Origin: Modicisalibacter luteus DSM 23508
GTDB taxonomy: Bacteria; Pseudomonadota; Gammaproteobacteria; Pseudomonadales; Halomonadaceae
Assembly: GCF_000378505.1 (NCBI RefSeq)
Contig: NZ_KB899994.1
Coordinates: 1-64,000, forward strand
Direction of reading: 5' to 3'
Length of the DNA: 64,000 bases
Position numbers and translations under genes: made by a program. The number at the start of each line of letters is the position of its first letter. Positions within the stretch are counted from its first letter, which is position 1. The notes under the pieces were generated by a model. The model was not told where the DNA came from, ran no database searches, and was given only the letters and a program-made list of their open reading frames with translations. Below, in pieces: positions 25,807 to 47,006 of the stretch.

Positions 25807-26435
25807 TCGGTTGTTGTCGTCTTGTGGTTGGCGTGGGGCGCCTGTTTCAACGCTTCGTAAAGAAGAGTAATAGAAAGTGAGTTTTTGAGGTAACGTCTTG
25901 TCTCAGTGAAATAAATACGATTTGAGTATTAATTTTCTAATGAATTTATTTGTTTTCAATAGCTTGTTTTGAAATGAATAACTGACGCCATCTGTGAAAT
26001 AAGAATAAATTATTAAACGGTAATTGGTTTGTAGCATTTGCAGCATGGTTGTTCTCATTCTTCTAGAATCGGCAAAGTCATCAATTTAAATAAATAAAGT
26101 GTGTTTTTGATAAGTTGAGTAAAGCTTTTGTTAAAGCGGGTCTCTTGGCGCTGATGGAATATGGCTCTCTTTTTCCTTTTATAAACAAGGCTTAGGGCGC
26201 ATGCGCTCCTGAATATAAGGATAAGGCTGAGTAATGCCAAAGGGCCTGGTTGAGAACATTAAGCCTTGTTTGCATATCCGTTGGGGCTAGTTTCTCACTA
26301 CGGCCAAATTTTATTGACGTTGTGTTTGGTGTGGGCGAGCCGGGTAAGAATTGGGCAAATAATGCTTGGTGACGCCTTTTAAAAGTTCTGTTTAGGCAGT
26401 GGTAAATAAAAGTATAAGAGACCAGGAGTCACATA
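25807..26435. promoter_or_regulatory. AT-rich divergent intergenic region (629 bp)
   Basis: No supported gene lies here. The region is markedly AT-rich compared with the coding DNA on both sides and carries many A/T tracts (for example 25910-25980 and 26080-26130), so it should hold the promoters of both the secretion operon and the giant gene. A perfect 10-bp palindrome GCGCATGCGC sits at 26197-26206. A tentative promoter for the giant gene is TTTAGG (26391-26396) and TATAAG (26413-26418), but this would leave a very short leader; TTGACG at 26314-26319 is an alternative -35. A 61-codon minus-strand frame at 26055-26240 has no support. Confidence 0.6.
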
Positions 26436-32400: not shown

Positions 32401-35400
32401 ACGAGCGTGCCGGCTGGGAGATCGAGCTGGAAGACGGTTACTACGAGGTAACCGTCTCCATCGGTGACACCTCGGGGCCCTACGACAGTCGTAACGTACT
32501 GAATGCCGAGGGGGAGCTTTTCAACGACCCGTTCACCCCGTTCCGGCCGGGCGACTTCCCGGCGGATAGCAATCCTGCCAACGACACCGAGGGATTCCGT
32601 TCCGACCTGGTCACTCGGGTCGTTCAGGTCACCGATGGGCGGCTGACCCTCGACTCCATTGGCCTGGACAACGAAAACACCGAAATCCAGTACATCGAAA
32701 TCCAGGCACTACCCGACCTGACGCCGGACGATACGCGCGAAGCACCTGAGGACTACGCATTCTTCACCGATCCGCGTGCCATTGCCGGCGTGGGCGAGAA
32801 CGAGGTTGAAGTCGACCTCGACCCTGCGGACGGTAGTGCACCCATCGGAGTCGATCCGACCTCGGACCTGTTCCTGGGCATCTCGGTGGTGGATGGCCGA
32901 GGCGGTGCCTTGCTTGAAAGTCTGGATAATGGCTCTATCCGCCTGTTCGAGACCGTGACTGGGCAAGAGGTGACGTTCAATGCCAATACCACGGGCGGCT
33001 TCGACTCGCTAACCATCTCGCCTACCGGTGACCTGAAGGAGTTCACCAGCTATACCCTGGTGATCGAAGGCTTCCAGGACCGCGGCGAGAACGATGACCT
33101 CAGTGCTCCGACCCGCGAGTTCCAGAAGTTCACCACCACGTTCGTCACCGGTGAAGCGCCTGAAGTCGTCGCGCGTGAAGTGGCTTTCAACGACGTGATC
33201 GAACTCAACGGCGCTGACGACAATGCTTTCGGCTTCACCTCGCTGGAGTTGTCGCCTGACGGCACGAAAATGTATGTCTCGACCATGGGAGGTCAGATCA
33301 AGCGCTATGACGTCGACCCCCAGACGGGCTCGCTCTCCAATGAGCAGACACTGACGCTGGACTATTTCCAGGGCGACGAGGCTGGGCCACGCGGTATCAT
33401 CGGCCTGACCTTCGATCCCAACGATCCCAACGTACTGTGGGTAACGGACAATTATCCCATCCCGCTATCGGGGCGTGACAATGGCGTGCCTGATTTCAGT
33501 GGGCGCATCAGCAAGATTACCATCGACGAGGGTGACGCCTTCACGGCCACGGCCGAGACCTATGTCACCGGCCTGCCACGCTCCAATGGCGACCACGTGA
33601 CCAACAGTCTCGAGTTCCGGGCCAACCCGGACTACGACGCCGTGACCAATCCGGACGTGCCCAGCCATATGCTCTATCTCGTGCAGGGCTCCAACTCGGC
33701 GATGGGCGAGCCGGACAGTGCCTGGGGCAACCGCCCCGAGCGTCTGCTGAACGCCACCGTGCTGGAGATAGACCCCACACGGGACGCGCCGGCAGGCGGT
33801 TTCAACGTCGCCACAGAACCGTTACCCGATGACGGTTTCAACCGCCGTTACACCGACGATGATGGCACCGACTTCAAGGCCGATCCTATCGCCATGGGCG
33901 ACGGCAAGTTTCTGGTGTTTGCGGAGAATGGTACGGCCACCGTGGAAGACCAGAACGGTAACGTCATCGAGACGTTCTACGATCCGTTCGCCGAAGATGC
34001 CGTGGTCAAGATCTTCGCCACTGGGGTGCGCAATGCCTACGACCTGGTCTGGCACTCCAACGGTCAGCTCTATGTACCCACCAACGGGTCGGCAGCGGGC
34101 GGGAGTGTTCCCGACAATCCGGATACACCGGAGAACGAGCTGTACACCAACGTCGGTAAGCAGGACGACTATCTGTTCAAGGTCGAAGAGGGCGGCTACT
34201 ACGGTCATCCCAATCCGCTGCGTGATGAGTACATCCTCAATGGGGGCAACCCGACGTCGGGCAGTGATCCGAACCAGGTCGGCGATTACCCGGCCGGCAC
34301 CGATCCCGAAACGACTTACGATCTCGAGGGGGCCTACTCGCTGGGCGAGAACCGTTCTCCCAACGGGGCGACCGAGTACACCAGTGATGTGTTCGGTGGC
34401 AATCTCCAGGGCAACGTGCTGTTCACCGAATACTCCGGTGGCGACGACATTCGCAGCATTACCCTGGACGCCAACGGCAACATCGTCGGTGATGATGTGC
34501 TGCGTGACGTCAGCGGTAACGTCATAACGTACATCGATCCGCTGGACATCATCGAAAACCCGATCACTGGGCAGCTCTACCTTCTCACGTTGAACCGCAA
34601 CAACGGGCAGAGCCAGCTCGTGCGCCTCGATCCGGCGCCGGGTGGTGTGATTACCGATCCGGGCGATCCCGGTGATCCAGGCGAGCCCTCTGATGATCTG
34701 GTGTCGCTGCTGGTCATTCAAGCTGAGGACGACACGCCCAGTGACGGCACCTCGGCGGTGATCGCCGAAGGCGGCGGGGCGGAAATCCAGATTCGCGATG
34801 CCGATAACCCCGAGTCTACTGGTGGTTTACCTAATGGGCTGCGTCCGGGCGCCTACGGCAACGACGGTAACACTGACAACACCGACGGCGTTCTGGGCGG
34901 TTATGCGGACTTCGGTGCCACCAATGCCGACTTCCTGACGTTCAACTTCGAGCTCAGTGGGGCCCAGGCCGGCGACTCGGTCTTGCGGGTACGCTATGCC
35001 AACGGGGGAACGGCGGATCGACCACTGGAAGTGTTCATTAACAACGTCAGTGTGGGCATCTTTGCCTTTGCACCGCCGACCGGCGTAACCGGCGACGATG
35101 CGTGGAGCGAGTGGCTGACGTTGGATATCCCGGCCGATCTGGTTTCCGGTCTGAACACGGTCCGCTTCCAGGCGACTGCCAGCACCGGGCCTAACATCGA
35201 CCAACTGGAAATCCTCCAGAAACCGGAAGACACCACTCCGGGCTACGCCGAATACGAGGCGGAGAGTGCCGACCTCGACGGCGCAGTGGTGGTGACACCG
35301 AGTGAAGACGATCGCAATGCCTCGGGAGACGGCTTCGTCGACTTCGCTGGTAGCGGCGACCAGTCCATTACCTGGACCATCGACGTGGCCGAGTCTGGAA

Positions 35401-38400
35401 CCTACGAGATCGCCTTCCGCTATGCCCTGGCGTCGAGTAAGGCGGACCGGCCGCTGGACCTGAGCATCAATGGCAGTGCTGTCGAGGTGGTCAACTTCCC
35501 CGGCCAGAGCAATGAGGCAGAAAACGATTGGTTCTTCCAGACCACCACGGTGACCCTGCAGGCCGGAAGCAACACCATCACGGTGACGGCGCCGGATGCC
35601 AACGGGCCAAACATCGACCTGTTGCGTATTGCGGACGCGCCGAGCGACAGCTTCGAGCCGACGTATGCCGATATCGATGGCAGTGGACGGATCGAACTTG
35701 AGAGCGGCGTATCAGCAAGGGCTGTCAACGACCGCACGGCTGATTTCTACTTCACCGTGGCAGCCGAGGGCGCCTATAAGCTCGACTTGGCGGCCAATAC
35801 CGATGCCAGCAATGGTGGACAGTTGACCTTGCTGCTTAATGGGCAGCCCATCGATGAAATGACGTTCCCGGGCATTGGCGATGCCGGTGAAGAGTCGTCC
35901 TACGTCGAACTCATGGCGGGGGTGTCCTATCACCTGCGAGTCGTGTCTGAGGCGGACGGCGCGGACGATATCGATTACCTCGATATCTCCCCGGCCCCGG
36001 GCGACCCAGAGGCGGACATCGCGATCCAAAGCGGCGATGCGGCATATTTCTCCGACCGTTTGCATTTCAACTACCTGGAGAACAACAGCGCCTCAAATCC
36101 CGACCGCGACTATAAAGAGAGTGGCACGGTCGTCATCAGCAACACCGGCAGCAACGAGTTGTCGGTGATCGATGTCGACATCGACGGTCCGTTCGAGCTC
36201 GCCGACCCGGATATCTTCGATGGGCTGACCCTGGCGGCGGGAGAATCCATTGAAGTCGCGGTGTTGTTTGACCGTGACGCCTACACAGCGCCGACAACGG
36301 ATGCCGGCGACGGCGTGTTCGAGGGCGTACTGCGCCTGGTAACCAACGATGCCGATACACCGGTTGCCGAGGTCCATCTGGCCGGTTTCTGGCAGGCGCG
36401 TGACGAAGGAGGCTGGGAGCCCAATGTCAACGAGGTGTGGGAGGTCTTCGGCTTTGGCAACCGCATCGATGGCCTGACCACGGTGGGCGGAGGCGAGAAC
36501 TCGGTACTCAACGATTACGATCTCTATCGCCCGGTCAACGACGATGAAGTGTTGTCGCGCTACTGGACCATCGCAGAGGGCTATGAGGCGGCCAAGATTA
36601 CTCAGCTGGCCGCATTCCACGGTAATGGTGGGGCCACACTGGGTATCCATAACCCTGAGAACAAGGGCCAGGACATCACGTTGTCCAACCATGCCGGTAA
36701 CAACAACCAGTCGCTCCTGCCGATCACCAGCAGCGGACAGTTCGCCACGGCGACCTTTACCCGTGACCAGATTCCGAACAGCTGGATCGGCAACGACATG
36801 TTCGGCATCGAGGTGGCCGGTCTGTCCACCGATCCGTCGCTCAACCCCTCCGGCGGCGGTGACGTGCCCGACGATGCCGACGGCATCGAGCGTGGCTACA
36901 CAGTGCGTATGTTCCAGGCGCTGGATGCCAACGGCAACGTGATTCCCAATACCTATCTGGGGATCATGGATTACACCGGCATCAACTACGACTACAACGA
37001 CAACATGTTCGTCATCGAGGGTATTGCACCGGCCTCCGGCGGCGAGATTTCGGTGACGAACCTGGACGGTGTGCCGGCGGACGATCGCCTGGTGATGAGT
37101 CGCATCGAGAACCCTGCCAATAGCAGCCAGGAGGTACACGACGAGGTCACGTTCACCATCACCAATGACGGTTTCTCCAACCTGAATATCAGCCAGCTTG
37201 AGATCGCCGACCCCTCGCTGTTCGAGATCGTCGGTGATAGTAACGACCTGGTGGTCGCGCCGGGCGGCTCGCTTAACGTGACAGTGCGCTTCATCGGGCA
37301 GGATTCCAATGATGGCACTCTCTACGAGTCCTCACTGATCATCCATTCCAACGATGCCGACGAGGGGCAAAAGGTCATCCAATTGGCCGGCATCGCCCAA
37401 GGGCAATCGGAAAATGGCCAGGAGCCGACGGTTCAGGAAATCGTCAACGCTTTCGGGTTCTCGACCAACGTGGCCCAGGGAGAGATGAACCAGGGCGGCC
37501 TGGTGGAGGCCAACGGCGACGAGATCCTGTCGCCATACTTCCAGCGTGCCGATGGCGCGTCTCCGGTCAAGATCACCCAACTGGCGGCGTACCACACCCA
37601 GGGGGATATCGCCCGGCTGTTCATTCATGACGTCGACAGCCGCGATATCGACGAGATCCTGGCTCATGACGAGCAGGATGGGCAGACGCTGCTGCCGCGT
37701 ACCCTTAACGGTGGAGATGCGTTGACAACCACCGCGCTCGATCGCGATACACCGTTCGGTTTCTTTGCGGAAATCAGCGGACGCCAGGGGTACATCTCCT
37801 GGTCCGATCCCGATGCCAACCTTTACGAGGACACCATCGACGAGATCGGTACGCCGGGCACCAACCTCAACTGGGACGAGAACGACGGGCACCTGATCCG
37901 CGTCTACGTCGCCAAGGATGCCGACGGCAACGCGATCCCCAACACTTACATCGTGATCCAGGATTACGCGGGGGTGAACTACGACTACAACGACAACATC
38001 TTCCTGGTCGAGAACGTTCAGACCTACGACCCGAGTGGCGCCGAGGACGCCGATGAAAACGGACGCGTCGACATCTACGACGACGCCGACGGTGACGGCG
38101 TACCCAACTTCCTCGATGGCGACATGCCGGAGGAGCCGGAAGCGCAGAGCGCCTACAACGCCAGCGAAACCCCGTGGGTGATCGACAGCGACGGACTAAC
38201 GCTCCAGGCGGCCGATTATGACCAGGGCGGTCAGGGGGTGGCCTACAACGACAGTAGCGAGGCTCAACTGGGCAGCGGCTATCGCGGTGAAGGCGTCGAC
38301 ATCGTCGGCAACGGCACGGCCATTGGCTGGGTCGAGAATGGCGAATGGGTGGAATACACCATTAACGTTAGCCAAGCCGGGACCTATGAGCTGTCGTTCC

Positions 38401-40052
38401 TCTCGGCGCTAGGCTCGCAAGGAGGCAGTGCGCGGTCGATTACCGCATCGTTCGCGCAGAACGACGGTACGTATGCCACGGCCTCCCCGGTATCGGTCAA
38501 CTACACCGGGGGCTGGAGTGCCTTCCAGCAGACAGACAGCGTGCAGGTCGAGCTCGAGGCCGGCGTTCAGGTCGTACGGCTAACCTTCAACGGCGGTTCG
38601 CAGGATCTAGCCTCGTTCGATCTCGTGCCGGTCGCCATCAATACTGCGCCGGTCGTCGATGCCGGCCTGGATGATCAGACGGCGACCGAGGACCAGGCCT
38701 TCTCATTCACCATTCCCGAGGATGCCTTTGCCGATGTCGATGGAGATGCACTGACCTATACCGCTAGTGGGCTCCCGTCCGGGTTATCGATGTCGGCGGT
38801 AGGCGTCATCACAGGCGTACCTACCGCTGCAGGCAGCTTCGACATTCTGGTAACCGCCTCCGATGGTGAGGCCAGTGCCGAGAGCAGCTTCACGCTGACC
38901 GTCGCCGGGGCACCCAATAACGACGCCCAGACGCCATTCAATGCAGCCGGTACGCCATGGGTGGTCGATGATGGCATCACCCTCGAGGCGACGGCTTTCG
39001 ACGTCGGCGGCGAAGGTATCTCCTACAGCGATAACGAGGCAGCACAGCTGGGGGACGACTACCGCGAAGGAGGAGTAGATATCACCGGCAACGGCACGGC
39101 TATTGGCTGGGTCGATGATGGCGAGTGGGTGGAGTACACCATCAGTGTCGAGCAAGCGGGAACCTATAGCTTGTCGTTGCTGACGTCGACGCCCAACAAC
39201 GGCCGCACCGTGACGGTGTCGGTGGAACAGGACGGAGCGTTTTACACCACCTCATCGCCGGTGGCGGTGCCAAACACCGGCTCGTGGACCAACTTTACGC
39301 CCACCGAGGCCGTTGAACTCGATCTGCAGGCCGGAGAGCAGGTGGTACGTCTGACCTTCAGTGGCGGCTCCATGGATGTTCAGTCTCTGACACTGACGCG
39401 CGAGGACAGCCAGACGCCGTTCAACGACACCGGCACGCCCTGGTTGGTCGACGCCGATGGGCTAGCGCTGGATGCTGTGTCATTCGACAGCGGCGAGGCG
39501 GGAGAGGCCTATTCGGACAGCGACAGTGTCCAGAGTGGCGTGACCTTCCGCGACGGTAGCGTGGATATTGCCGACGAGGGGGAGGCAATTGGCTGGATCG
39601 CGGATGGAGAGTGGGTGGAGTACACCATCAATGTCGAACAGGCGGGCACATACAACCTGTCGTTCGTGACGACCACGCCGCATAACGGACGCTCGATTAC
39701 CGCGTCGGCGGAGCAGGATGGCACGTTCTATGCGCAATCTGCTCCGCTGGCCGTACCGAACTCCGGCAGTTGGGACAACTACGTCTCGACTGGTGCCGTG
39801 GAGCTCGATCTGCAGGCCGGAGAGCAGGTGCTACGCCTGACCTTCAACGGTGGGTCGATGGATCTGCAGTCGCTGCTTATCGAGCCACAGGAAACGTCTA
39901 CGCAGCAGATGGCATCGCTTATGACGTTCGAGGGACTGATTGCCGAGGATGACGGTACGGCCGACAGCGCTGACGACGACATGCTGCCCATGAGTGATGA
40001 CGTTGGTGTCGAGGGGGTCATTCAAGAAGAACAGGGGGACAGCCTGCTGTAA
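26436..40052 (+). CDS. Giant modular exoprotein (4538 aa), probable type I secretion substrate
   Basis: Approximate module order: Ig-like N-terminus (1-115); CBM35-like modules at 125-265 and 273-443; cadherin-like (449-538); unknown beta domain (553-711); Ig/dystroglycan-like (716-910); CBM-like (911-1075); two cadherin-like (1078-1285); CBM35-like (1286-1440); Ig-like (1446-1545); two CBM35-like (1553-1875); malectin-like (1891-2085); Big_5-like (2111-2238); glucose/sorbosone dehydrogenase-like beta-propeller (2246-2736); Pro-Gly-Asp linker; CBM35-like and a divergent copy (2760-3190); two choice-of-anchor-D plus DUF4114-like units (3190-3861, each ending NYDYNDN); thrombospondin-type-3-like DADGDGVPNFLD (3871-3896); three CBM6-like units (3904-4481) with an Ig-like insert; acidic tail. 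No signal peptide, transmembrane segment or RTX nonapeptides; almost no cysteine. Ribosome-binding site CCAGGAG. The adjacent divergent exporter makes type I secretion likely. Role inferred: surface or matrix protein that binds glycans and Ca2+. Confidence 0.85.
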   Translation: MFSISLVNTQTGVLLGGIKEGTWLDTSAYDNVAFRVIPDADSGIDPTLVSRVRLTLTDVNGTALAQTDSEAPFTFYAPSTWVHGDASLLIEPLDSTGEVLAIGSEHIGFIVADGPAAVDAPMTPLRYQAEDAVLAGTTIATVGDPDPNAVDADAGAYVDYGEPSGESVSFTVDMPEAGTYELNLRYALSQNADGTDRNRPLRLEINDQLVDRMFDLPSTTDSADPTDFTMFGDRTILINLQAGSNTITLSSNGASGPNIDYLEVRQPAAGHVVIQGEDMLLSAEPDYTSTGSSTNRPITTENIVAIGDTFRVGAEGASYLDWAFGNAEAYAEFNYQAPAAGTYSMTVTYAGATDRPLDLVRVADSETTAIGTFGFAATAAPGYLPDDLGDLPSNVNVSDVPSGWEGWSTETLTFHLEAGNNLLRLGGRTNGPNIDKVEMLLVDADPVAPGDIVLDNASVLENAEGAAVGQLIIADSNDATHTFSVDDERFEIDSSGMLRLKEGTSLDFEAEQTVTVSVTATDANELSVTRSFSIAVGDVAETAAPAPEPTGPQAVIFTEDGISSYTTTQDNPVGLGYEIIDEGAALSLNDNLWKRVALPQAYAITENTRIELDLTVGESSPEIVAIGFDLNDNAFDGDQSLYQLAGTQGQGAIIDLRGSGSDNGDGTQHFVIDLGAHAGASIGSLVFISDDDTTAILGSATFSNVQLTEGSDDEVGNHAPRVVGSGIADLQLDEGALLEVDLPFVDDDGDSLAYTFTISQEGTTIDGFDGLAIQDGVLSGSLSGLEPGNYTVIITATDSQSASTEETFQLTINNVNEAPVADDIALEPYFGEQGSFFDGIELANFAQYFTDPDGDALTLSVEGLPAGLSVDDEGVISGTPNEAGSFEVVIRATDTEGLSSTLAVQFDIDGPDIGDVVSVEAEDFTGLGDADNYYATGNPDASGDEIIRLGNNASTQVTTQLADNGVVPGWYTVSVVAFDETDGQGTLSLQIGDTLLQARNTATNTLSDTVVLNDEYGTFLNTSARGNAGQAGNLKQIDFETVVYIDANTLATLTAQGESGELMRIDRLLFTHSEEPINEAPTIGGLEPALMIDENVNEVSTVTLADAENDPLTVTLEGADAALFTFDQASGALAFVVGPDAENPTDSNADGIYEITVSVNDGENVTSQDVVVSVADANEVLAIEQTAFSVMEGASVVGAVPLADEDGGTTGLVAPAFAITGGADASLFTIDPVSGQLAFVTAPDFEAAADADGDNVYEVDVMANDGELSGVQTLQVTVLDTNEAVFTPIVLQAEDGMLTVLDGGENNTVTTVRDSDNPEDNNALPNGLRPDFSGTGYVDFGDTAGDAVTFDFTVAEAGTYDLNIRYASNTGRPLDLNINGAHIAALPFASTDPDGSGEEEGFNHWLFETVTVTLEAGSNSLSLAIPDGATTGPNIDRIEITAAGSGPIGTDMSADIDGNLTLTSDDATLDPAQAASAGFMVTGLDSDIETVEISFDGGATRSQVTPAADGSFTVDMSGFSGAIVATVIVTDAVGNEASATSEMIIGEAPADIDPIVIQAEDATLVDINDTGVPTSGDYTRVVDANNPDAFGNYREGAEGDAYVDFGTNPGDEVSFNVDVEVAGTYTATIRFANGGSEARPLNLSVNGGAATAVVFPAAPDDGVTDPWNIWNELTVEVDLQAGANTVSFAIPSVAEGGVDNGPNIDQIVFDYVNEDVEEPPVVEPFLFEIEGEALTIDDTEPTPDTVVRDADNPETNQGAGADGLWDGFSGTGYLDMGGEAGDAAFFDVTVEESGIYTLTVRYANGDGNGADRPMDLQVGGVSQGQLTFPNTGAGDAGWQNWTEVTFDVQLEAGANTVRLENVGNAGPNIDKLTISRDGTEQPEEPPFVEPGERFMVKINFQPEGFATPDGYVADTGLAFGEQFVEVGGQTYQCGWVSEASIADGTENGTTPMAINDQTSVAVNDRTDEIAGLDPRQGTYAHFDQPAAGYERAGWEIELEDGYYEVTVSIGDTSGPYDSRNVLNAEGELFNDPFTPFRPGDFPADSNPANDTEGFRSDLVTRVVQVTDGRLTLDSIGLDNENTEIQYIEIQALPDLTPDDTREAPEDYAFFTDPRAIAGVGENEVEVDLDPADGSAPIGVDPTSDLFLGISVVDGRGGALLESLDNGSIRLFETVTGQEVTFNANTTGGFDSLTISPTGDLKEFTSYTLVIEGFQDRGENDDLSAPTREFQKFTTTFVTGEAPEVVAREVAFNDVIELNGADDNAFGFTSLELSPDGTKMYVSTMGGQIKRYDVDPQTGSLSNEQTLTLDYFQGDEAGPRGIIGLTFDPNDPNVLWVTDNYPIPLSGRDNGVPDFSGRISKITIDEGDAFTATAETYVTGLPRSNGDHVTNSLEFRANPDYDAVTNPDVPSHMLYLVQGSNSAMGEPDSAWGNRPERLLNATVLEIDPTRDAPAGGFNVATEPLPDDGFNRRYTDDDGTDFKADPIAMGDGKFLVFAENGTATVEDQNGNVIETFYDPFAEDAVVKIFATGVRNAYDLVWHSNGQLYVPTNGSAAGGSVPDNPDTPENELYTNVGKQDDYLFKVEEGGYYGHPNPLRDEYILNGGNPTSGSDPNQVGDYPAGTDPETTYDLEGAYSLGENRSPNGATEYTSDVFGGNLQGNVLFTEYSGGDDIRSITLDANGNIVGDDVLRDVSGNVITYIDPLDIIENPITGQLYLLTLNRNNGQSQLVRLDPAPGGVITDPGDPGDPGEPSDDLVSLLVIQAEDDTPSDGTSAVIAEGGGAEIQIRDADNPESTGGLPNGLRPGAYGNDGNTDNTDGVLGGYADFGATNADFLTFNFELSGAQAGDSVLRVRYANGGTADRPLEVFINNVSVGIFAFAPPTGVTGDDAWSEWLTLDIPADLVSGLNTVRFQATASTGPNIDQLEILQKPEDTTPGYAEYEAESADLDGAVVVTPSEDDRNASGDGFVDFAGSGDQSITWTIDVAESGTYEIAFRYALASSKADRPLDLSINGSAVEVVNFPGQSNEAENDWFFQTTTVTLQAGSNTITVTAPDANGPNIDLLRIADAPSDSFEPTYADIDGSGRIELESGVSARAVNDRTADFYFTVAAEGAYKLDLAANTDASNGGQLTLLLNGQPIDEMTFPGIGDAGEESSYVELMAGVSYHLRVVSEADGADDIDYLDISPAPGDPEADIAIQSGDAAYFSDRLHFNYLENNSASNPDRDYKESGTVVISNTGSNELSVIDVDIDGPFELADPDIFDGLTLAAGESIEVAVLFDRDAYTAPTTDAGDGVFEGVLRLVTNDADTPVAEVHLAGFWQARDEGGWEPNVNEVWEVFGFGNRIDGLTTVGGGENSVLNDYDLYRPVNDDEVLSRYWTIAEGYEAAKITQLAAFHGNGGATLGIHNPENKGQDITLSNHAGNNNQSLLPITSSGQFATATFTRDQIPNSWIGNDMFGIEVAGLSTDPSLNPSGGGDVPDDADGIERGYTVRMFQALDANGNVIPNTYLGIMDYTGINYDYNDNMFVIEGIAPASGGEISVTNLDGVPADDRLVMSRIENPANSSQEVHDEVTFTITNDGFSNLNISQLEIADPSLFEIVGDSNDLVVAPGGSLNVTVRFIGQDSNDGTLYESSLIIHSNDADEGQKVIQLAGIAQGQSENGQEPTVQEIVNAFGFSTNVAQGEMNQGGLVEANGDEILSPYFQRADGASPVKITQLAAYHTQGDIARLFIHDVDSRDIDEILAHDEQDGQTLLPRTLNGGDALTTTALDRDTPFGFFAEISGRQGYISWSDPDANLYEDTIDEIGTPGTNLNWDENDGHLIRVYVAKDADGNAIPNTYIVIQDYAGVNYDYNDNIFLVENVQTYDPSGAEDADENGRVDIYDDADGDGVPNFLDGDMPEEPEAQSAYNASETPWVIDSDGLTLQAADYDQGGQGVAYNDSSEAQLGSGYRGEGVDIVGNGTAIGWVENGEWVEYTINVSQAGTYELSFLSALGSQGGSARSITASFAQNDGTYATASPVSVNYTGGWSAFQQTDSVQVELEAGVQVVRLTFNGGSQDLASFDLVPVAINTAPVVDAGLDDQTATEDQAFSFTIPEDAFADVDGDALTYTASGLPSGLSMSAVGVITGVPTAAGSFDILVTASDGEASAESSFTLTVAGAPNNDAQTPFNAAGTPWVVDDGITLEATAFDVGGEGISYSDNEAAQLGDDYREGGVDITGNGTAIGWVDDGEWVEYTISVEQAGTYSLSLLTSTPNNGRTVTVSVEQDGAFYTTSSPVAVPNTGSWTNFTPTEAVELDLQAGEQVVRLTFSGGSMDVQSLTLTREDSQTPFNDTGTPWLVDADGLALDAVSFDSGEAGEAYSDSDSVQSGVTFRDGSVDIADEGEAIGWIADGEWVEYTINVEQAGTYNLSFVTTTPHNGRSITASAEQDGTFYAQSAPLAVPNSGSWDNYVSTGAVELDLQAGEQVLRLTFNGGSMDLQSLLIEPQETSTQQMASLMTFEGLIAEDDGTADSADDDMLPMSDDVGVEGVIQEEQGDSLL
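39318..39344 (+). repeat. Direct repeat copy 1 inside the giant gene
   Basis: This 27-nt stretch, beginning CTCGATCTGCAGG, is identical to 39804-39830. The copies lie in the second and third CBM6-like units and mark a recent or homogenised duplication. Confidence 0.85.
39804..39830 (+). repeat. Direct repeat copy 2 inside the giant gene
   Basis: Identical to 39318-39344, at a spacing of 486 nt, equal to one CBM6-like unit (162 codons). The flanking bases are also highly similar but have scattered differences. Confidence 0.85.
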
Positions 40053-40058
40053 ACCGTG

Positions 40059-40096
40059 ACGTGGGCGGGGGCGGCAGTGCCCGCCCCCGCCCACGT
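40059..40096 (+). terminator. 16-bp GC hairpin after the giant gene
   Basis: A perfect 16-bp stem (40059-40074 with 40081-40096, core GGGCGGGGGCGG) and a 6-nt loop lie 7 nt after the stop codon of the giant gene and 54 nt before eboD. There are only two T after it, so it may terminate partially or protect the 3' end and set a step in expression between the giant gene and eboD. Confidence 0.65.
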
Positions 40097-40150: not shown

Positions 40151-41425
40151 ATGGATAATGAGATTTTTGCAGGGACTCGAGGCGCTCCGGCTGCCACAAC
40201 AGGCAACGCCTCGTCGCGAAACGATAATGACGTAACCGGTACCAATGCCACAGTGGTCAAGTGGCAGCGCTTTTCCGTGCCCTATGCCTATCCGGTGGCG
40301 TTCACCCGCGATCTTTTTGCCGCCGACAATCCCCTGCTGCTAGAGATGTTGGCGATGCGCGAGCGGGACAAACGGCATCGCTGTCTGGTGTATCTCGACG
40401 AGGGCGTCGTGTCGGCACAATCCGATCTGCCGACTCGCATGCGGGCCTATTTCGAGGCGCACTCGCAGCATGTCGAGCTGATCGACTGGGTCGTCGTACC
40501 GGGCGGCGAGAACATCAAGTTGCATCCGGGGCATGTCATGGCAATGCTCAAGTCGATCCATCGGCTGGGGGTCGATCGCCATGCCTATGTCATTGCCATC
40601 GGCGGCGGGGCGGTGCTGGACGCCGTCGGCTTCGCGGCAGCGACGGCGCATCGTGGGGTCAGACATATTCGCATCCCCACCACGGTGCTTTCCCAGAACG
40701 ATAGCGGGGTCGGCGTCAAGAACGCGATCAACACTCACGGGGTCAAGAACTTTACCGGCACGTTCGCGCCCCCCTGGGCGGTACTCAACGATTTCAACTT
40801 CTTGAAAACCCTGCCTCGACGCGAGCGTGTCGCCGGTATTGCCGAGGCCATCAAGGTTGCCCTGATTCGCGACGGTGACTTCTATCGCTGGATGGAAGCC
40901 AATGCCCAAGCGTTGGCCCGGTTCGATCAGTCGGTGGAGGAGTTCATGGTGCGCCGCAGCGCCGAGCTGCATATGCACCAGATCGCTTACGGCGGCGACC
41001 CATTCGAGCTGGGATCGGCGCGTCCGCTCGATTTTGGCCACTGGTCGGCGCACAAGCTCGAGGCGCTGACAGATCACGAGGTGCACCACGGTGAAGCGGT
41101 AGCCATCGGCATCGCGCTCGATGCGCGCTACTCGGCCCTGACGGGTTTGCTGTCCGAGCAAGAAGCTCAGCGTATCATCGGCTTGCTCGAAACACTGGGT
41201 CTCCCTACATTTCATCCGCAGCTGCTCACCCCCGATTCCGATGGTGAGTTGGCCATCCTCGCTGGATTGCGTGAATTCCGTGAGCATCTGGGCGGTGAGC
41301 TGACCGTTACGCTGCTCTCCGGCATCGGCCAGGGTATCGAGGTTCACGCCATCGATACGGCACTCATGGCGCAGGCGATCGCCTGGCTCGGCGAACGGGA
41401 GGAATGCCATGCGCTTGCCCAATGA
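40151..41425 (+). CDS. eboD: EboD: 3-dehydroquinate synthase-like protein
   Basis: 424 residues. It is a sugar-phosphate cyclase-type protein of the dehydroquinate synthase superfamily. Family features are the NAD-binding IGGGAVLDAVGFAAATAHRG, IPTTVLSQNDSGVGVKNAIN, KNFTGTFAPPWAVLND and the metal ligands in GIAEAIKVALIRD, LDFGHWSAHKLEAL and HHGEAVAIGI. It is not the housekeeping AroB, since AroB lacks the long N-terminus and its neighbours are different. Its product in ebo clusters is unknown; a cyclitol is an inference. Start ATG 40151, with an in-frame GTG at 40136. It overlaps eboE by 17 nt, so the two are coupled. Confidence 0.88.
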   Translation: MDNEIFAGTRGAPAATTGNASSRNDNDVTGTNATVVKWQRFSVPYAYPVAFTRDLFAADNPLLLEMLAMRERDKRHRCLVYLDEGVVSAQSDLPTRMRAYFEAHSQHVELIDWVVVPGGENIKLHPGHVMAMLKSIHRLGVDRHAYVIAIGGGAVLDAVGFAAATAHRGVRHIRIPTTVLSQNDSGVGVKNAINTHGVKNFTGTFAPPWAVLNDFNFLKTLPRRERVAGIAEAIKVALIRDGDFYRWMEANAQALARFDQSVEEFMVRRSAELHMHQIAYGGDPFELGSARPLDFGHWSAHKLEALTDHEVHHGEAVAIGIALDARYSALTGLLSEQEAQRIIGLLETLGLPTFHPQLLTPDSDGELAILAGLREFREHLGGELTVTLLSGIGQGIEVHAIDTALMAQAIAWLGEREECHALAQ

Positions 41426-42593
41426 CCTAGGCGATCTGACCTATTGCCTCAATATTCATCCGGCCGAAACCTGGCCAGAGGTCCGCGAGGCATTGCTGGG
41501 GCCTGTAAGAGAGGTCCGGCAAGCGGTGGCACCCGATGAGCCCTTTGCGGTCGGGCTGCGCTTGTCCGCCCAGGCCATGCATACGCTCGAAGATTGGCGT
41601 GTGCGTGCCGAGCTGAAGGATATTCTGGCCTCGGAGGGCTATCGTGTCGTTACCGTCAATGGGTTTCCCTATGGCACGTTCCATGGGGTGCGCGTCAAGG
41701 AAGATGTCTACCAGCCGGACTGGCGATATGCGGCGCGCCTGGAGTACACCTGTGCGTTAGCCGAGCTGATGGCGGAACTCGGCGCTGCCGGTGATCGCAT
41801 CAGCCTGAGCACAGTGCCAGGCACCTTCAAGCCGTTGGGGCCCGGCAACGAGTCGCTGATGGCTGATAACCTGTTGAAGGCGGCCGCGCACTGTGCCGAG
41901 CTCGAACGCCGCACAGGCGTCTGCGTGGCCATCGCGATAGAGCCGGAGCCTTACTGCTTCCTGGCGACCATCGACGAATCGATCGCCTACTTCCGCCATT
42001 ATCTGCTTTCCGAAGGGGCCTTGCGTCGATTTGCCGAGCTGGCGGGAGTGAGCGCGAATCACGCGGCCGTCGTCCTATCCCGGCATCTCGGCCTGTGTTA
42101 TGACGTTTGTCATGCAGCGGTCGAATTCGAAGACCCCTGCGCCAGCATCGAGAGGCTGCGCGAAGCCGGTATTCCTATTCACAAGCTGCAGCTCAGTGCG
42201 GCTTTACGTGTTGCCGAGGTCGATGCCCAGGCGCGTCACGCACTTGAGGCGTTTGCTGAACCCACCTATCTACATCAGGTCGTGGCATCGGGAAAGCAGG
42301 GTATCACCCGCTATGCAGATCTCCCGGAAGCCTTGGCGCGCGGCCGCCATGCCGATAACGAAGAATGGCGAATCCACTACCATGTGCCCATTTTCGCCGA
42401 GTCGTTAGGGGCATTCGGCACGACCCAGCCCTTTCTGTCCGAGATTCTCGAACTACACCGCCAGTCGCCGATCTGCTCGCATCTAGAAATTGAAACCTAC
42501 ACCTGGCATGTCCTGCCCCAGGCGCTGAAGCACGAAAGGATTGAGGAGGCGATCGCATGCGAACTGCGCTGGGTGGCAGAAAGGTTGGCTTGA
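41409..42593 (+). CDS. eboE: EboE: TIM-barrel sugar isomerase/epimerase-like metabolite traffic protein
   Basis: 394 residues with a xylose isomerase-like TIM barrel. Candidate metal-binding segments are AIEPEPYCFLATID, CYDVCHAAVEFED, HKLQLSAALRV and HVPIFAESLGAFGTT, and the protein ends with EIETYTWHVLPQ, the shape of EboE proteins in ebo clusters. The substrate is unknown. A GGGAGGA ribosome-binding site precedes the ATG. The 5' end overlaps eboD by 17 nt and the 3' end overlaps eboC by 37 nt, so the three genes D-E-C form one tightly coupled unit. Confidence 0.87.
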   Translation: MRLPNDLGDLTYCLNIHPAETWPEVREALLGPVREVRQAVAPDEPFAVGLRLSAQAMHTLEDWRVRAELKDILASEGYRVVTVNGFPYGTFHGVRVKEDVYQPDWRYAARLEYTCALAELMAELGAAGDRISLSTVPGTFKPLGPGNESLMADNLLKAAAHCAELERRTGVCVAIAIEPEPYCFLATIDESIAYFRHYLLSEGALRRFAELAGVSANHAAVVLSRHLGLCYDVCHAAVEFEDPCASIERLREAGIPIHKLQLSAALRVAEVDAQARHALEAFAEPTYLHQVVASGKQGITRYADLPEALARGRHADNEEWRIHYHVPIFAESLGAFGTTQPFLSEILELHRQSPICSHLEIETYTWHVLPQALKHERIEEAIACELRWVAERLA

Positions 42594-43432
42594 ACTGGCG
42601 ACCTTGGTTACGACTGGGGCGGATTTCCAATCTGCCGACGGTATGGACGAATGGGCTGGCGGGCTGGCTACTATCGATGGGGATGGCACCCACATCGGGA
42701 CTGTGGCTTGTTCTGGTGGCCCTGTCGCTGTTCTATGTCGGTGGCATGTACCTCAACGATGCTTTCGATGCAGCGATCGATTCGCGGGAGCGTGCCGAGC
42801 GTCCGATCCCGATGGGTGAGGTCACTCGCTCCACGGTGGCCGCCAGTGGAGCGGTCATGCTCGGGTGTGGCGGGCTACTGCTGTTTACGTTGGGAGCGGC
42901 CGCCGGACTCTCGGGCTTGGCGCTGATTGTGGCCATTGTGGTGTACAACTGGTACCACAAACGCACGTCCCTGGGGCCCGTCATCATGGGCGGATGCCGT
43001 CTGCTTGCCTACGTGACGGCAGCCCTCGCGGCAGGGGGGATTACCAGTTGGACACTGATCGGTGCCCTGGGCCTGTTCTGCCATGTCGTGGGCCTGACCT
43101 ACGCGGCCCGCCAGGAAGCCTATGACCGCGTTGGGACAGCGTGGCCTCTGGCGGTTCTGGCGGTTCCCGGTGTGATTCTCGCCACGCGCGTCATGGATTG
43201 GACCACCGCCGTATTGCTGGTTCTTTACCTGCTATGGATGGCCTGGTCACTGCGCCTGCTGTTTCGCCGCCAGCCCGGTGACGTATCGCGGGCTGTGGTT
43301 GGCCTGATCGCTGGGATTTCCCTCTTCGATGCTGGCCTTATCGGTTCGCTGGGCGCAGATGGATTGGCCTGGCTGGCCGTCGCCGCATTCGGGCTCACTC
43401 TGGGAATGCAGCGTCTGGTATCGGGAACGTAA
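42557..43432 (+). CDS. eboC: EboC: UbiA-family prenyltransferase
   Basis: 291 residues, about eight to nine membrane helices. The first Asp-rich motif of UbiA enzymes, NDxxDxxxD, is visible as NDAFDAAID near residue 60, followed by RPIPMGEVTRS; a second acidic region, YAARQEAYD, lies near residue 185. UbiA enzymes attach a prenyl chain to an aromatic or sugar acceptor at the membrane. The acceptor in ebo clusters is not known. The ATG has a GAGGAGG ribosome-binding site and overlaps eboE. It is the last gene of the D-E-C unit and is followed by a 14-bp hairpin. Confidence 0.88.
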   Translation: MRTALGGRKVGLNWRPWLRLGRISNLPTVWTNGLAGWLLSMGMAPTSGLWLVLVALSLFYVGGMYLNDAFDAAIDSRERAERPIPMGEVTRSTVAASGAVMLGCGGLLLFTLGAAAGLSGLALIVAIVVYNWYHKRTSLGPVIMGGCRLLAYVTAALAAGGITSWTLIGALGLFCHVVGLTYAARQEAYDRVGTAWPLAVLAVPGVILATRVMDWTTAVLLVLYLLWMAWSLRLLFRRQPGDVSRAVVGLIAGISLFDAGLIGSLGADGLAWLAVAAFGLTLGMQRLVSGT

Positions 43433-43453
43433 GGATCGAAAACTTGCAGGTTT

Positions 43454-43498
43454 CACGCCCTGGCGCCGCCCAGTGAATCGAGCTGGCGCCAGGGCGTG
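43454..43498. terminator. Bidirectional hairpin between eboC and eboF
   Basis: A perfect 14-bp stem (CACGCCCTGGCGCC at 43454-43467 with 43485-43498) with a 17-nt loop lies between the convergent stop codons of eboC and eboF. No T tract is present on either side. It is a likely transcript end for both. Confidence 0.65.
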
Positions 43499-44944
43499 TC
43501 ATTTGGCGAGGGGGTGTTCGGATTGCCGGGCGGCTCCTTGCTTCGCCGGCATCCGGGCGGTGTCTTCGAAAACATGCGCTAGCGTCAACGCCTTGAACTG
43601 CGTCGCCTCAACGGGCCCCTTCGGTAGCAACGCCGCTTCCGAAGAAATGACCAGCGGACCATCGTCGGGGTCATCGGTAACACGTCCATGCGAGCCCTTG
43701 ACCAGCGAGGTGGCGTTCAAGGAGATCACGTCAAGCAGTTGCCGCATGCCCAGCTTACGCTTGGCCACGCGCCAGCCTGCGGCCAGCTTGGGCCAACGGA
43801 GGTCGGGGTCGAAGAACAGCTCGACAGGGTCGTAACCGGGCTTGCGATGGATATCCACGGTACGGGCATAGTCAGGCGCGCGGGCATCGTCCAGCCAGTA
43901 GTAATAACTGAACCAGCGATCCGCCTCAGAAATAGCGACCAGCTCGCCGGCATTGGGATGATCGAGTCCATGGGTGCGTTTTTCGGCTTCGCCCCAGACG
44001 GACTCGATGCCGTCGATTTCCTCCAGTAACGCTCGGATCCGGGCCACCTGGCCGGGATTCCGAACGTAGACGTGAGCAATCTGGTGGTCAGCGACGGCAA
44101 AGGCCTGTGAGGCTCCGGCATCGAGTTGCTCTCGGCCCTGCTCGTTGCGAACGGCCAGCAGCCCGGCACGGCGTAGGACGCGATTGATGTGGACCGCCTC
44201 GTTGACCGGCGTGATCCCGTACTCCGAGACGACGATGATGCGCCTACCGTCGCGTCTGGCGGCATCGATCAGCTCACCGCACAGCGCATCGACATCCTGC
44301 AGGTCGCGTTGCAGTTCGGGATGCTCAAGGTCGGGGCCGAGACGTTGCAGGTTATAGTCGAGGTGTGGCAGGTAGGTAAGGGTTAGCGTCGGATCGCGCG
44401 TGTCCATGACGTGCCGGGTAGCATCGGCGATCCAGCGGCTAGAGGTAATATCGGCGACAGGGCCCCAAAACGTGAACAGCGGAAACCGGCCAAGCTTGCC
44501 ATCGAGTTCGTCATGCAACTCGGGAGGATAGGTGTAATGGTCCGGAATCTTGCGGCCATCGGCCGGATACATTGGGCGTGGCGTTGCGCTCCAGTCTGCG
44601 CTGGAATACATGTTGTACCACCAGAAAAGCTTGGCACAGGTAAACGAGGGATCACGCGCTTTTCCAGCTTCCCAGAGCTTCTCGCCGCTCACTAATCGAT
44701 TCGACTGTCGCCACAACCACACCTCGGACAAGTCGCGAAAGTACCAGCCGTTAGCGACTGCACCATGACCGGCAGGGGGTAGCCCTGTAACTAGCGTGGA
44801 CTGGACACTGCATGTCACGGCAGGCGTCACCGTGTTAAGTGGTCTCAGCCCGCCCTGGCTCGCTAGCGCCGCAAGGTTCGGGGTGTACTTACCCACCAGG
44901 CGTGGCGAAAGGCCGACCACAAGAATTACGAGTGTCTTGTTCAT
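43499..44944 (-). CDS. eboF: EboF: alkaline phosphatase-superfamily nucleotide pyrophosphatase/phosphodiesterase-like
   Basis: 481 residues. The fold is that of type I phosphodiesterase/nucleotide pyrophosphatases. The nucleophile threonine is in TVTPAVTCSVQSTLVTG near residue 40, the metal ligands in LPHLDYNLQRLG and the variant SEYGIT (SDHGM in usual phosphodiesterases), and the C-terminal ligand around RKPGYDP. SEYGI is the form seen in ebo cluster proteins. The start at 44944 (MNKTLVILVVG) is chosen over upstream ATG 45004, with AGGA nearby. Here it is inverted relative to the other ebo genes and convergent with eboC, so its expression is not in the same transcript. Confidence 0.85.
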   Translation of the reverse strand: MNKTLVILVVGLSPRLVGKYTPNLAALASQGGLRPLNTVTPAVTCSVQSTLVTGLPPAGHGAVANGWYFRDLSEVWLWRQSNRLVSGEKLWEAGKARDPSFTCAKLFWWYNMYSSADWSATPRPMYPADGRKIPDHYTYPPELHDELDGKLGRFPLFTFWGPVADITSSRWIADATRHVMDTRDPTLTLTYLPHLDYNLQRLGPDLEHPELQRDLQDVDALCGELIDAARRDGRRIIVVSEYGITPVNEAVHINRVLRRAGLLAVRNEQGREQLDAGASQAFAVADHQIAHVYVRNPGQVARIRALLEEIDGIESVWGEAEKRTHGLDHPNAGELVAISEADRWFSYYYWLDDARAPDYARTVDIHRKPGYDPVELFFDPDLRWPKLAAGWRVAKRKLGMRQLLDVISLNATSLVKGSHGRVTDDPDDGPLVISSEAALLPKGPVEATQFKALTLAHVFEDTARMPAKQGAARQSEHPLAK

Positions 44945-45004
44945 CTTGTTGTCCTGTACTTTTTGCAGGTTGTTTCCGGGCGAGTAATAACAGATAACTA
45001 GCAA

Positions 45005-45217
45005 GGAGGAGGGGGCTTCTCAATGCGGAAAGAAACAAATGAAACTAAAATAATCCAAATGTTAGTAAATGTAATAACGGTGAAATTAAGAACATCCTTC
45101 TGAACCCTAAGAGGAATGATTCTATCTTCTGCCTTTAAAACGCTAGTGAAATGATCTTGGGGAGTTGGCCATTAGCCGATAGGTTGTGAGTCATGAAAGA
45201 AAAGCAGGGAACCAGTC
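45005..45217. promoter_or_regulatory. AT-rich divergent region between eboF and eboA
   Basis: This 213-bp gap is AT-rich, with A tracts near 45035-45095, unlike the GC-rich genes. It should carry promoters for eboF on minus and eboAB on plus. No clear -10/-35 pair was assigned. The composition resembles that of the region upstream of the giant gene. Confidence 0.5.
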
Positions 45218-46084
45218 ATGACTATTGCACCTATCGACTTATTGAGCGAATGGATCCTGCGCCAGGCGGGGGATAAAGGCGCTTGGTTCATGTCCCAGTT
45301 GCACTCGATGTCAAAGGGAGCGAGCGAGCAAGAGCTGCATATTTTTATGGGACTTATCCCGCGCATGCTGGGCAAGCAAGACCTGGTCCTGACGCCGGCT
45401 GATTGCCAGCAGGCGGAACAGGTGTGCACTGGGTGGCGCCCGCAGGGCTGGAGCATGGATGGCGGGGCACGGGTCGCCGCCTTGGTCGCTTATCAGGGAA
45501 CACGCCCCTTCGCTGAAACGTTCAAGGACTTGCGGCGCACGGCGGATGCCGGGGAAATGATTGCCCTGTATCGGGGGCTATCGCTGTATCCCGAGCCCGA
45601 GTCACTCGCCTTCGAGGTCGGTGAAGGGCTTCGCTCCAACATGCGTGCAGTTTTCGAGGCAATCGCTCACAACAACCCTTATCCGAGAGATCGCTTCGAC
45701 GAGCACCGCTGGAACCATATGGTTCTCAAGGCGCTCTTCGTCGGTAGCCGTCTTTCGCCGATCATGGGCATCGACGAGCGCGCCAACCCAGAGCTGGCTC
45801 GTATCCTGCTCGATTATGCCCACGAGCGTTGGGCTGCCGGACGTGCCGTGTCGCCGGAACTCTGGCGTTGCGTCGGGCCATTCATCGATTCCCTGGGCGC
45901 GCTCGATGACATGCAGCGTGTGCTCGCGGGTACGGAGGTCGAACGTAGGGCCGCTGTGCTGGCGCTGTCGGCAAGCTCATCGGCGCAAGCCCGTTCGCTG
46001 CTAGATACTTCTCCCGAGGCGGCACGCCTCGTTGGGGAGGGACGTGTCGACTGGAATAATCTTCTGCAAGGCGAGGCGGCCTGA
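45218..46084 (+). CDS. eboA: EboA domain protein
   Basis: 288 residues, helical and probably soluble. The second half has features expected of EboA: EHRWNHMVLKALFVGSRLS, PIMGIDERANPELARIL, ERWAAGRAVSPELWRCVGPF. EboA has no known biochemical role; in cyanobacteria the ebo genes are needed for export of the scytonemin precursor. An AGGGA site lies near 9 nt before the ATG. eboB starts 1 nt after its stop codon, so the two form a coupled pair. Confidence 0.85.
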   Translation: MTIAPIDLLSEWILRQAGDKGAWFMSQLHSMSKGASEQELHIFMGLIPRMLGKQDLVLTPADCQQAEQVCTGWRPQGWSMDGGARVAALVAYQGTRPFAETFKDLRRTADAGEMIALYRGLSLYPEPESLAFEVGEGLRSNMRAVFEAIAHNNPYPRDRFDEHRWNHMVLKALFVGSRLSPIMGIDERANPELARILLDYAHERWAAGRAVSPELWRCVGPFIDSLGALDDMQRVLAGTEVERRAAVLALSASSSAQARSLLDTSPEAARLVGEGRVDWNNLLQGEAA

Positions 46085-46085
46085 C

Positions 46086-47006
46086 ATGTATATTGATCCG
46101 CATGCACACATGATTTCGCGTACCACCGACGATTACGAGGCCATGGCCGCGGCCGGCATCGTAGCGCTGATCGAGCCTGCGTTCTGGGTGGGGCAGCCCA
46201 GAACGTTTGTTGGCACTTATGTCGACTACCTCTCTTCTATTGTCGGTTGGGAGCGCTTTCGCGCGGGACAGTTCGGAATTCGTCACTACTGCACGGTCGG
46301 CCTCAACTCAAAAGAAGCCAACAACGAGGAACTGGCCGAGGGGGTCATGGAATGGTTACCGCGTTTCGCGCTCAAGGAGGGGGTCGTTGCCATTGGTGAG
46401 ATCGGCTACGACGAGCAGACAGAACTGGAAGACAAATATTTTCGAGCCCAACTCGCGTTGGCCAGGGACCTGCAGCTTCCGGTTATGGTGCATACGCCGC
46501 ATCGCGACAAGAAGCGCGGAACGTCGCGTTCCATGGATGTCTGCGAGGAGATGGGCATCGATCCTTCCTGGGTGGTGATCGATCACAACAACGAGGAGAC
46601 CGTAGCCGAGACATTGGATCGGGGATACTGGGCCGGCTTTTCCATCTACCCCTCGACCAAGATGGGCAATGCTCGCATGGTCGAGCTACTCAAACAGTAC
46701 GGGGGGGATCGCATCATCGTGGATAGCGCCTGCGACTGGGGCATCTCGGATTGCCTCGGTGTGGCCAAGACGGCGCAACTGGCCCGCCAGCACGGCATCG
46801 ACGAGGACATCATTCACAAGGTGACCTATGCCAATGCGCTTGAAGTCTATGGCAAGAGTGGCCAGATCCGCGACAGTGATTGGCTGGACCCGCCGGGTAT
46901 CGATCAGCGCACGCTTTTCGAGGGTAACTCGATACTGCGTGGCGGTCGTGAACCGCGTATCGAGACACTTGGCGCGCAAAGTGGTGACAGTTTGCTGATC
47001 GAATAA
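46086..47006 (+). CDS. eboB: EboB: TatD-like metal-dependent hydrolase
   Basis: 306 residues. The metal-binding DxHxH motif is visible at the start as DPHAHM, with later ligands in AIGEIGYDEQTELE, VMVHTPHRDK, VIDHNNEET and VDSACDWG. Those place it in the amidohydrolase/TatD group but the match to housekeeping TatD (6945-7829 here) is low, and the EboB family is the better call. Its substrate is unknown. The start at 46086 lies 1 nt after the eboA stop. An upstream in-frame start at 46032 would overlap eboA and is not used. Confidence 0.87.
   Translation: MYIDPHAHMISRTTDDYEAMAAAGIVALIEPAFWVGQPRTFVGTYVDYLSSIVGWERFRAGQFGIRHYCTVGLNSKEANNEELAEGVMEWLPRFALKEGVVAIGEIGYDEQTELEDKYFRAQLALARDLQLPVMVHTPHRDKKRGTSRSMDVCEEMGIDPSWVVIDHNNEETVAETLDRGYWAGFSIYPSTKMGNARMVELLKQYGGDRIIVDSACDWGISDCLGVAKTAQLARQHGIDEDIIHKVTYANALEVYGKSGQIRDSDWLDPPGIDQRTLFEGNSILRGGREPRIETLGAQSGDSLLIE

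Follow-up and report, generated by a model that had tools for sequence, protein, structure and literature searches.

A complete ebo gene cluster of proteobacterial type in Modicisalibacter luteus, and a possible prenylated cyclitol lipid as its product

The ebo locus and its six proteins

The first 64,000 nucleotides of contig NZ_KB899994.1 of Modicisalibacter luteus DSM 23508 (Halomonadaceae), the whole of which is called the window below, carry an ebo gene cluster at positions 40151 to 47006. An earlier note on this DNA had placed all six Ebo-type proteins here, in the order D-E-C, then F on the other strand, then A-B. Both points are borne out, the first by the open frames together with NCBIfam and Pfam matches, and the second by the positions of the six frames, which are all intact and span 6.9 kb. 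The locus is a genuine ebo cluster, complete and of a type conserved in proteobacteria; its genes and features are as follows.

40151..41425, plus strand: eboD, sugar phosphate cyclase of the EboD type, not AroB (frame from 40136; NF004852 match)
41409..42593, plus strand: eboE, xylose-isomerase-like triosephosphate isomerase (TIM) barrel (NF035939 match; overlaps eboD)
42557..43432, plus strand: eboC-like prenyltransferase of the UbiA superfamily, proteobacterial branch (Pfam UbiA match)
43499..44944, minus strand: eboF, type I phosphodiesterase / nucleotide pyrophosphatase superfamily (Pfam PF01663; frame open to 45004)
45218..46084, plus strand: eboA, predicted all-helical protein (EboA_domain match)
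46086..47006, plus strand: eboB, metal hydrolase of the TatD superfamily (frame from 46032; Pfam TatD_DNase match)
43454..43498, no strand: perfect 14-nt inverted repeat in the gap between the converging genes eboC and eboF, a putative two-way terminator
44945..45217, no strand: divergent intergenic region of eboF and eboA, a putative promoter region judging from orientation
40059..40096, no strand: perfect 16-nt inverted repeat in the gap between a giant upstream gene and eboD, a putative terminator

In the window EboE scored 426 bits on NCBIfam NF035939 (cut-off 250) and EboD 568 bits on NF004852 (cut-off 333), which is the model that picks up EboD although NCBI labels it 3-dehydroquinate synthase. 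On the AroB model TIGR01357 (cut-off 305) the same EboD reached 224 bits, while a separate AroB elsewhere in the genome scored 390 bits there and just 211 on NF004852, which rules out EboD as the AroB of the cell. EboB is ruled out as a TatD nuclease in the same way. It matched Pfam TatD_DNase (66.5 bits, cut-off 27) and no curated EboB-specific model, its 39 bits on the TatD model TIGR00010 are far below the cut-off of 206, and a separate TatD elsewhere in the genome scored 270 bits. Membership of AroB and of the TatD nucleases, named in the earlier note as what would speak against its reading, was thus not found for either protein. EboF matched Pfam Phosphodiest PF01663 (213 bits, cut-off 23), reached no NCBIfam cut-off and matched no curated EboF-specific model.

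EboA passed EboA_domain with 163 bits (cut-off 50), stayed at 231 bits on the narrower EboA_family (cut-off 320) and had no match in Pfam. EboC passed Pfam UbiA (64.5 bits, cut-off 34.2) and stayed below the cut-off of 250 on the NCBIfam EboC model NF035940, with 98 bits, close to its 86 bits on the SCO3242 prenyltransferase model. The Ebo family profiles proposed as a check in the earlier note therefore agree with it for EboE, for EboD through NF004852 and for the EboA domain, but not for EboC or EboA_family. Two other proteobacterial EboC proteins, of loci L086 and L121 (loci are given L numbers throughout), were also under the NF035940 cut-off with 108 and 122 bits, and three cyanobacterial or Bacteroidetes ones tested were above it with 388-425 bits. 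Automatic annotation may therefore under-report proteobacterial ebo clusters, since the model missed all three proteobacterial EboC proteins (98-122 bits). EboB and EboF show far stronger conservation than EboA and EboC: between the window and loci L027-L050 of its relatives the identity is 83-95% for EboB, 78-90% for EboF, 57-65% for EboA and 54-65% for EboC. These ranges omit the pair of loci with broken frames and, in the case of A and C, also the close kin L039 and L044 (81-91%).

Invariant residues were examined by alignment in EboD, EboE and EboC. E237, H302 and H318 of EboD (numbered from 40136), which we take to be metal ligands, are invariant in 12 aligned EboD proteins. All 12 also have D299 and H384, which correspond in the alignment to Asp and His residues of ValA, a sedoheptulose-7-phosphate cyclase of solved structure (4p53), and the same positions are Asn and Val in the aligned dehydroquinate synthases, the Val standing beside a Lys pair; the two positions are presumably those of the EEVS fingerprint. 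An Ala and an Asp occupy the places of an Arg and an Asn of the aligned dehydroquinate synthases, presumably R264 and N268. The idea of such a fingerprint for sugar phosphate cyclases is described in PMC4426668 (this paper, PMC5133447, PMC6282210 and PMC9235831 are all cited for passages of their text). The class of EboD is a predicted one, set by profile scores and aligned residues.

The motif NDxxDxxxD of EboC is invariant in all 22 aligned rows, the window included. UbiA proteins are expected to carry a second Asp motif, and at its position the EboC rows have an invariant Thr and Glu. The window protein has seven hydrophobic windows and shares 21-25% identity with the rows from Bacteroidetes, cyanobacteria and actinobacteria in the EboC alignment (A6). 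The AlphaFold2 model of EboA is all-helical, with a mean predicted local distance difference test score of 97, and has no match among PDB folds at E <= 0.001. This predicted fold agrees with the scaffold idea put forward in passages of PMC6282210.

The likely start codons, read from the DNA, are ATG for eboD (40151), eboF (44944) and eboB (46086). The D/E and E/C frames overlap and eboB follows directly after eboA, while eboC and eboF converge and eboF and eboA diverge over about 273 bases. From gene orientation, the overlaps and the inverted repeat between C and F, three transcription units (DEC, F and AB) are expected; a search of the locus for promoters of sigma-70-type consensus gave no match. 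Beyond eboB follow genes which we take, from their proteins, to be holA and then lptE and leuS.

Gene order and origin of the cluster

We compared the order in 201 genomes from 24 genera of the family, using EboE to find ebo. EboE was present in 25 genomes from two genera, 8 of the window's genus and 17 of another, and the six genes have the same order and orientation, D-E-C-<F-A-B (< marks the reversed gene), in all 24 other ebo loci fetched. This is the comparison among relatives that the earlier note had called for, and its result matches the order in the window. Two of the relatives, L046 and L050, have ebo genes with broken frames, which may be decay or sequencing error. In a class-wide sample EboE was found in 15 of 369 genomes, the window's own counted.

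The wider comparison started from 106 loci, and in 66 of them (64 different) five or more ebo genes were found. This comparison took 8 of the 24 family loci, and the clustering of neighbouring genes described below took 5; L083 was omitted, and some loci are the same contigs (L085=L040, L087=L047, L156=L032, L142=L077). There were 25 different arrangements among the 66 rows. DEC<FAB was found in 23 rows, 12 from Halomonas/Salinicola (11 different) and 11 others from Rhodobacterales (on chromosomes and on plasmids), from Nitrospirillum amazonense and from L078, a member of the window's class; L099 is among the loci with this order. Annotated plasmids of Salipiger sp. CCB-MM3, Roseivivax marinus and Ketogulonicigenium vulgare carry the same arrangement, and that of K. 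vulgare was typed as conjugative.

One operon running from A to F, which the earlier note had given as the usual arrangement, is not general. ABCDEF occurs in 6 of the 66 rows, one of which (L075) belongs to the window's class, and passages of PMC5133447 confine it to Bacteroidetes, Cyanobacteria and Leptospira. The same source already describes the orders ABDEFC, FABDEC and DECABF as well as clusters with one reversed gene, so that variation of this sort, a permuted order in which a single gene is inverted, was known before. DEC<FAB is ordinary for the lineage of the window and no local oddity. The departure from the first-described A-to-F order is the sole point in favour of a rearrangement that happened recently and locally, or of an artefact of assembly. 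Such a cause has next to no probability and is rejected, since all 24 other family loci are identical and DEC<FAB is found in other taxonomic orders and classes.

A tree of the 66 rows was made from B, D, E and F with a quick method, Shimodaira-Hasegawa-like approximate likelihood ratio test (SH-aLRT) support and a midpoint root. All 12 rows from Halomonas/Salinicola fall into a single group (support 100). Their sister is a group of eight Rhodobacterales rows (89), one of which, L094, carries another order, and the two groups together have a support of 99. Two more Rhodobacterales rows branch next (100 and 87), and the fork beyond also includes the gammaproteobacterial L078, L105 and L114 and one Rhodospirillales row. 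To fit this tree, the DEC<FAB label must have changed at least four times. The simplest reading is a horizontal gain, with Rhodobacterales-like bacteria as the presumed donors, and it is probable that the ebo locus was gained horizontally.

In four relatives (L039, L043, L044 and L050) eboB and holA are no more than about 4 kb apart. The region beyond holA was compared in nine genomes of the same genus, six without ebo and three with ebo elsewhere, and within about 1.5 kb past holA no ebo gene was seen by eye in any of the nine. The holA side of the locus therefore looks like a variable site.

A synthase in the place of EboD and the neighbours of ebo

As the window EboC scored nearly as high on the SCO3242 model as on the EboC model, the Actinobacteria were searched. 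Three of six genomes reached via other loci passed the cut-off, and in a further actinobacterial family sample 16 of 40 genomes did so, with 17 loci. Of the resulting 20 EboC-like loci (L171, L172, L173 and L196-L212), 19 have the order myo-inositol-1-phosphate synthase-C-A-B-E-F in one direction, without EboD. The synthase carries Pfam PF07994 and PF01658 in all three cases tested. None of 18 such actinobacterial genomes passed the cut-off of the EboD model, which the window genome passed as a positive control. Since an enzyme that makes a cyclitol phosphate replaces EboD in Actinobacteria, a cyclitol is by analogy the favoured product of EboD. The main text of PMC5133447 has no word starting with "inositol", and no link between ebo and inositol synthase was found in the literature searched.

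Neighbouring genes were clustered for 77 ebo loci of the 106 given. The recurrent neighbours were a secreted protein of glucose/sorbosone-dehydrogenase type (Pfam PF07995), c-type cytochromes, a TMEM220-type protein and a nudix protein. The scan for them covered 125 loci, 96 with at least three ebo genes, and 65 loci (64 different) were left after excluding 28 Halomonas/Salinicola rows (25 different) and three actinobacterial loci. The dehydrogenase-type gene is near ebo in 19 of the 65 (L073, L076, L081, L086, L088, L090-L092, L097, L101, L105, L107, L111, L112, L120, L123, L133, L134 and L160), counting L107 with its weak match of 56 bits. It lies between ebo genes in four loci (L076, L097, L105 and L112), within 1.6 kb in 14 and 5.4 kb away in L081, and cytochrome c is also present in 16 of the 19. 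At most about one linked locus would be expected from the density of PF07995 in 12 of those genomes (48 matches with fragments counted, over about 55 Mb), a figure that overstates the background. The gene was found in none of 23 EboE-only control loci (Fisher p 0.0014), a set which omits L098, L102 and L104, with ebo-like EboE scores, and L082, a contig of 5.6 kb.

As a raw count, the dehydrogenase was also present in the 20-kb stretches of 11 of the 20 actinobacterial clusters, with one weak match besides. On the Salipiger plasmid a pyrroloquinoline quinone (PQQ)-dependent dehydrogenase gene is two genes past eboB, and in the cyanobacterial L162, the one positive example of scytonemin genes next to ebo, a ScyE-family protein is encoded just upstream of eboA, with ScyF between. 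Co-occurrence within the window's family was tried as a clue and is uninformative, as 178 of the 201 genomes have such a dehydrogenase with or without ebo.

The nudix protein is found in six of the 65 loci (L114, L105, L101, L112, L116 and L133). That of L114, the sole one tested, had 105 bits on the isopentenyl-diphosphate isomerase model, below the cut-off of 127; a nudix neighbour would fit isoprenoid use. The small TMEM220-type membrane protein occurs in 15 of the 65, and its gene stands just before eboD on the opposite strand in L073, L078, L086, L088, L090-L092, L095, L105 and L114. A conserved large protein (cluster 24) is encoded near ebo in L089, L099, L121 and L150, from four different genera.

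EboE-only loci cannot be regarded as reduced ebo clusters, as none of 26 had another ebo gene, and a gene annotated as EboE is by itself no proof of an ebo cluster. Of five inspected by eye among these loci (L117, L118, L130, L137, L138, L151 and others), three were near sugar-type ATP-binding cassette (ABC) transporters and the rest near other genes.

Upstream of eboD, at 21195-40052, type I secretion-like genes for an outer-membrane protein, an adaptor and an ABC protein, named by eye, are divergent from the gene of a 4538-residue protein with CBM6, CBM35 and immunoglobulin-type domains, which is probably the exported substrate of those genes. We rejected this protein as a partner of ebo, its C-terminal part being directly beside ebo in two relatives only (L039 and L044); a partial 38% match to that part lies farther from ebo in L040. 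A beta-propeller of glucose/sorbosone-dehydrogenase type, suspected in it by eye, was unsupported by Pfam, NCBIfam, PDB sequences and hhalign (probability 29).

A possible prenylated cyclitol lipid and its rivals

We give an even chance to the reading that the Ebo proteins make a prenylated cyclitol lipid which helps to hand a small molecule over to periplasmic oxidation, and that the present locus is a DEC<FAB-type cluster, probably gained horizontally. What we infer is the product, the sequence of steps and, for Halomonas, the transport role and the cargo. EboD would make a cyclitol, being replaced elsewhere by myo-inositol-1-phosphate synthase, and EboE and EboB would modify it. In the inner membrane EboC would attach a prenyl chain to the cyclitol, EboF may perform a phosphate or pyrophosphate step, and EboA could serve as a helical scaffold. 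The resulting amphipathic lipid would remain in the membrane and aid the passage of a small molecule to the periplasm. There a secreted oxidoreductase would use the small molecule, ScyE in cyanobacteria and in many others a protein of glucose/sorbosone-dehydrogenase type with cytochrome c. The half of this reading that concerns lipid synthesis draws on the comparisons made here, and the transport half mainly on the Nostoc work in passages of PMC6282210.

Several observations weigh against it. No Ebo product is reported in the literature searched, and in passages of PMC9235831 the EboC assay took aromatic acceptors, with no cyclitol reported. One of the 20 actinobacterial loci, L199, shows C and E alone; its source genome (G604) was outside the 18-genome EboD search. 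The neighbour profiles were built from the counted loci and the dehydrogenase family was chosen as the commonest neighbour, so that the linkage is an exploratory result. The dehydrogenase was not detected beside the three plasmid clusters L174-L176, and ScyE as a homologue of the linked dehydrogenases was unsupported (hhalign probability 11). None of the 28 Halomonas/Salinicola rows (25 different) is linked to the dehydrogenase, and the ebo-linked subfamily was found in one of the 201 family genomes, as a weak match of 31% identity. The linkage therefore informs the general role of ebo and says nothing on the partner in Halomonas.

We consider it rather unlikely that the cluster is there for an aromatic natural product, whose ring EboD supplies and EboC prenylates. 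This alternative is favoured by the EboC homologues of Maribacter, Zobellia and Algoriphagus, which farnesylate 8-hydroxyquinoline-2-carboxylic acid in vitro (passages of PMC9235831). The window EboC is distant from that assayed branch, as its low identity (21-25%) and its 98 bits against a cut-off of 250 show. EboD also has the Ala and Asp at the Arg and Asn positions given above for dehydroquinate synthase, and the inositol-phosphate synthase that replaces EboD is not known to make an aromatic precursor.

It is also conceivable, if unlikely, that the Ebo proteins are a transport machine in which EboA organises a membrane complex of EboC, EboA and EboB and no lipid product matters. In passages of PMC6282210, each of five single ebo deletions in Nostoc leads to the same cytoplasmic trapping of the scytonemin monomer, and Klicki et al. 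propose there an EboC-A-B complex, together with a lipid carrier; the confident all-helical model of EboA would suit a scaffold. Against this, five of the six proteins belong to enzyme superfamilies, and the exchange of EboD for another cyclitol-forming enzyme fits a biosynthetic step and not a structural part.

Quite improbable, finally, is a cluster that supplies a cofactor or an electron carrier to secreted quinoprotein-type dehydrogenases, without export of a substrate. The repeated linkage with genes of glucose/sorbosone-dehydrogenase type and cytochrome c, and the PQQ-dependent dehydrogenase after eboB on the Salipiger plasmid, are in its favour. The scytonemin monomer itself is retained in the cytoplasm of ebo mutants (passages of PMC6282210), and there is no linkage in Halomonas/Salinicola, where such dehydrogenases are near-universal regardless of ebo; both argue against it.

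To return to the prenylated cyclitol lipid, it is possible, at somewhat less than even confidence, that a single ancient pathway to such lipids can begin with either EboD or myo-inositol-1-phosphate synthase, the lipids serving periplasmic oxidation by secreted beta-propeller-type oxidoreductases with cytochrome c or by ScyE, and that the Halomonas cluster is a transferred copy with another partner. Ebo clusters are widespread, and in itself the present locus is a further example of a type already described. Because the reaction of the enzyme in the place of EboD is known, the ring-forming step becomes guessable and testable, and the site at which the Ebo product acts is suggested by the linked genes for secreted dehydrogenases and cytochromes c. 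Neither the exchange nor the linkage was found in the literature searched, which covered few subscription papers.

Compared with known systems, the window has the same six families clustered as in the ABCDEF operon of Bacteroidetes, Cyanobacteria and eustigmatophyte plastids (passages of PMC5133447), but in the order DEC<FAB with F reversed, and with EboC and EboA below the curated EboC and EboA_family cut-offs. It has homologues of all five genes required for export in Nostoc punctiforme, where ebo is linked to export of the scytonemin precursor, as the earlier note had said in agreement with passages of PMC6282210; in the window, unlike in Nostoc, eboD sits inside the cluster. No scytonemin genes were noticed beside the window ebo genes, and a genome-wide search for them was not made. 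The EDB cluster of Pseudomonas fluorescens (NZ17, cited in passages of PMC6282210) is, like the window, a full ebo set outside the cyanobacteria, and is linked to nematode repellence. The actinobacterial SCO3242-type cluster, like the window, groups homologues of C, A, B, E and F together, but with inositol-phosphate synthase and not EboD, and with C-A-B-E-F in one direction. Closest are the Rhodobacterales DEC<FAB loci, including the Salipiger, Roseivivax and Ketogulonicigenium plasmids, which share order and orientation with the window and form its nearest outside group in the tree; a gene of glucose/sorbosone-dehydrogenase type adjoins four of the six loci from named genomes (L086, L088, L090 and L092; not L089 and L093), whereas the three plasmid loci and those of Halomonas/Salinicola, the window included, are without one.

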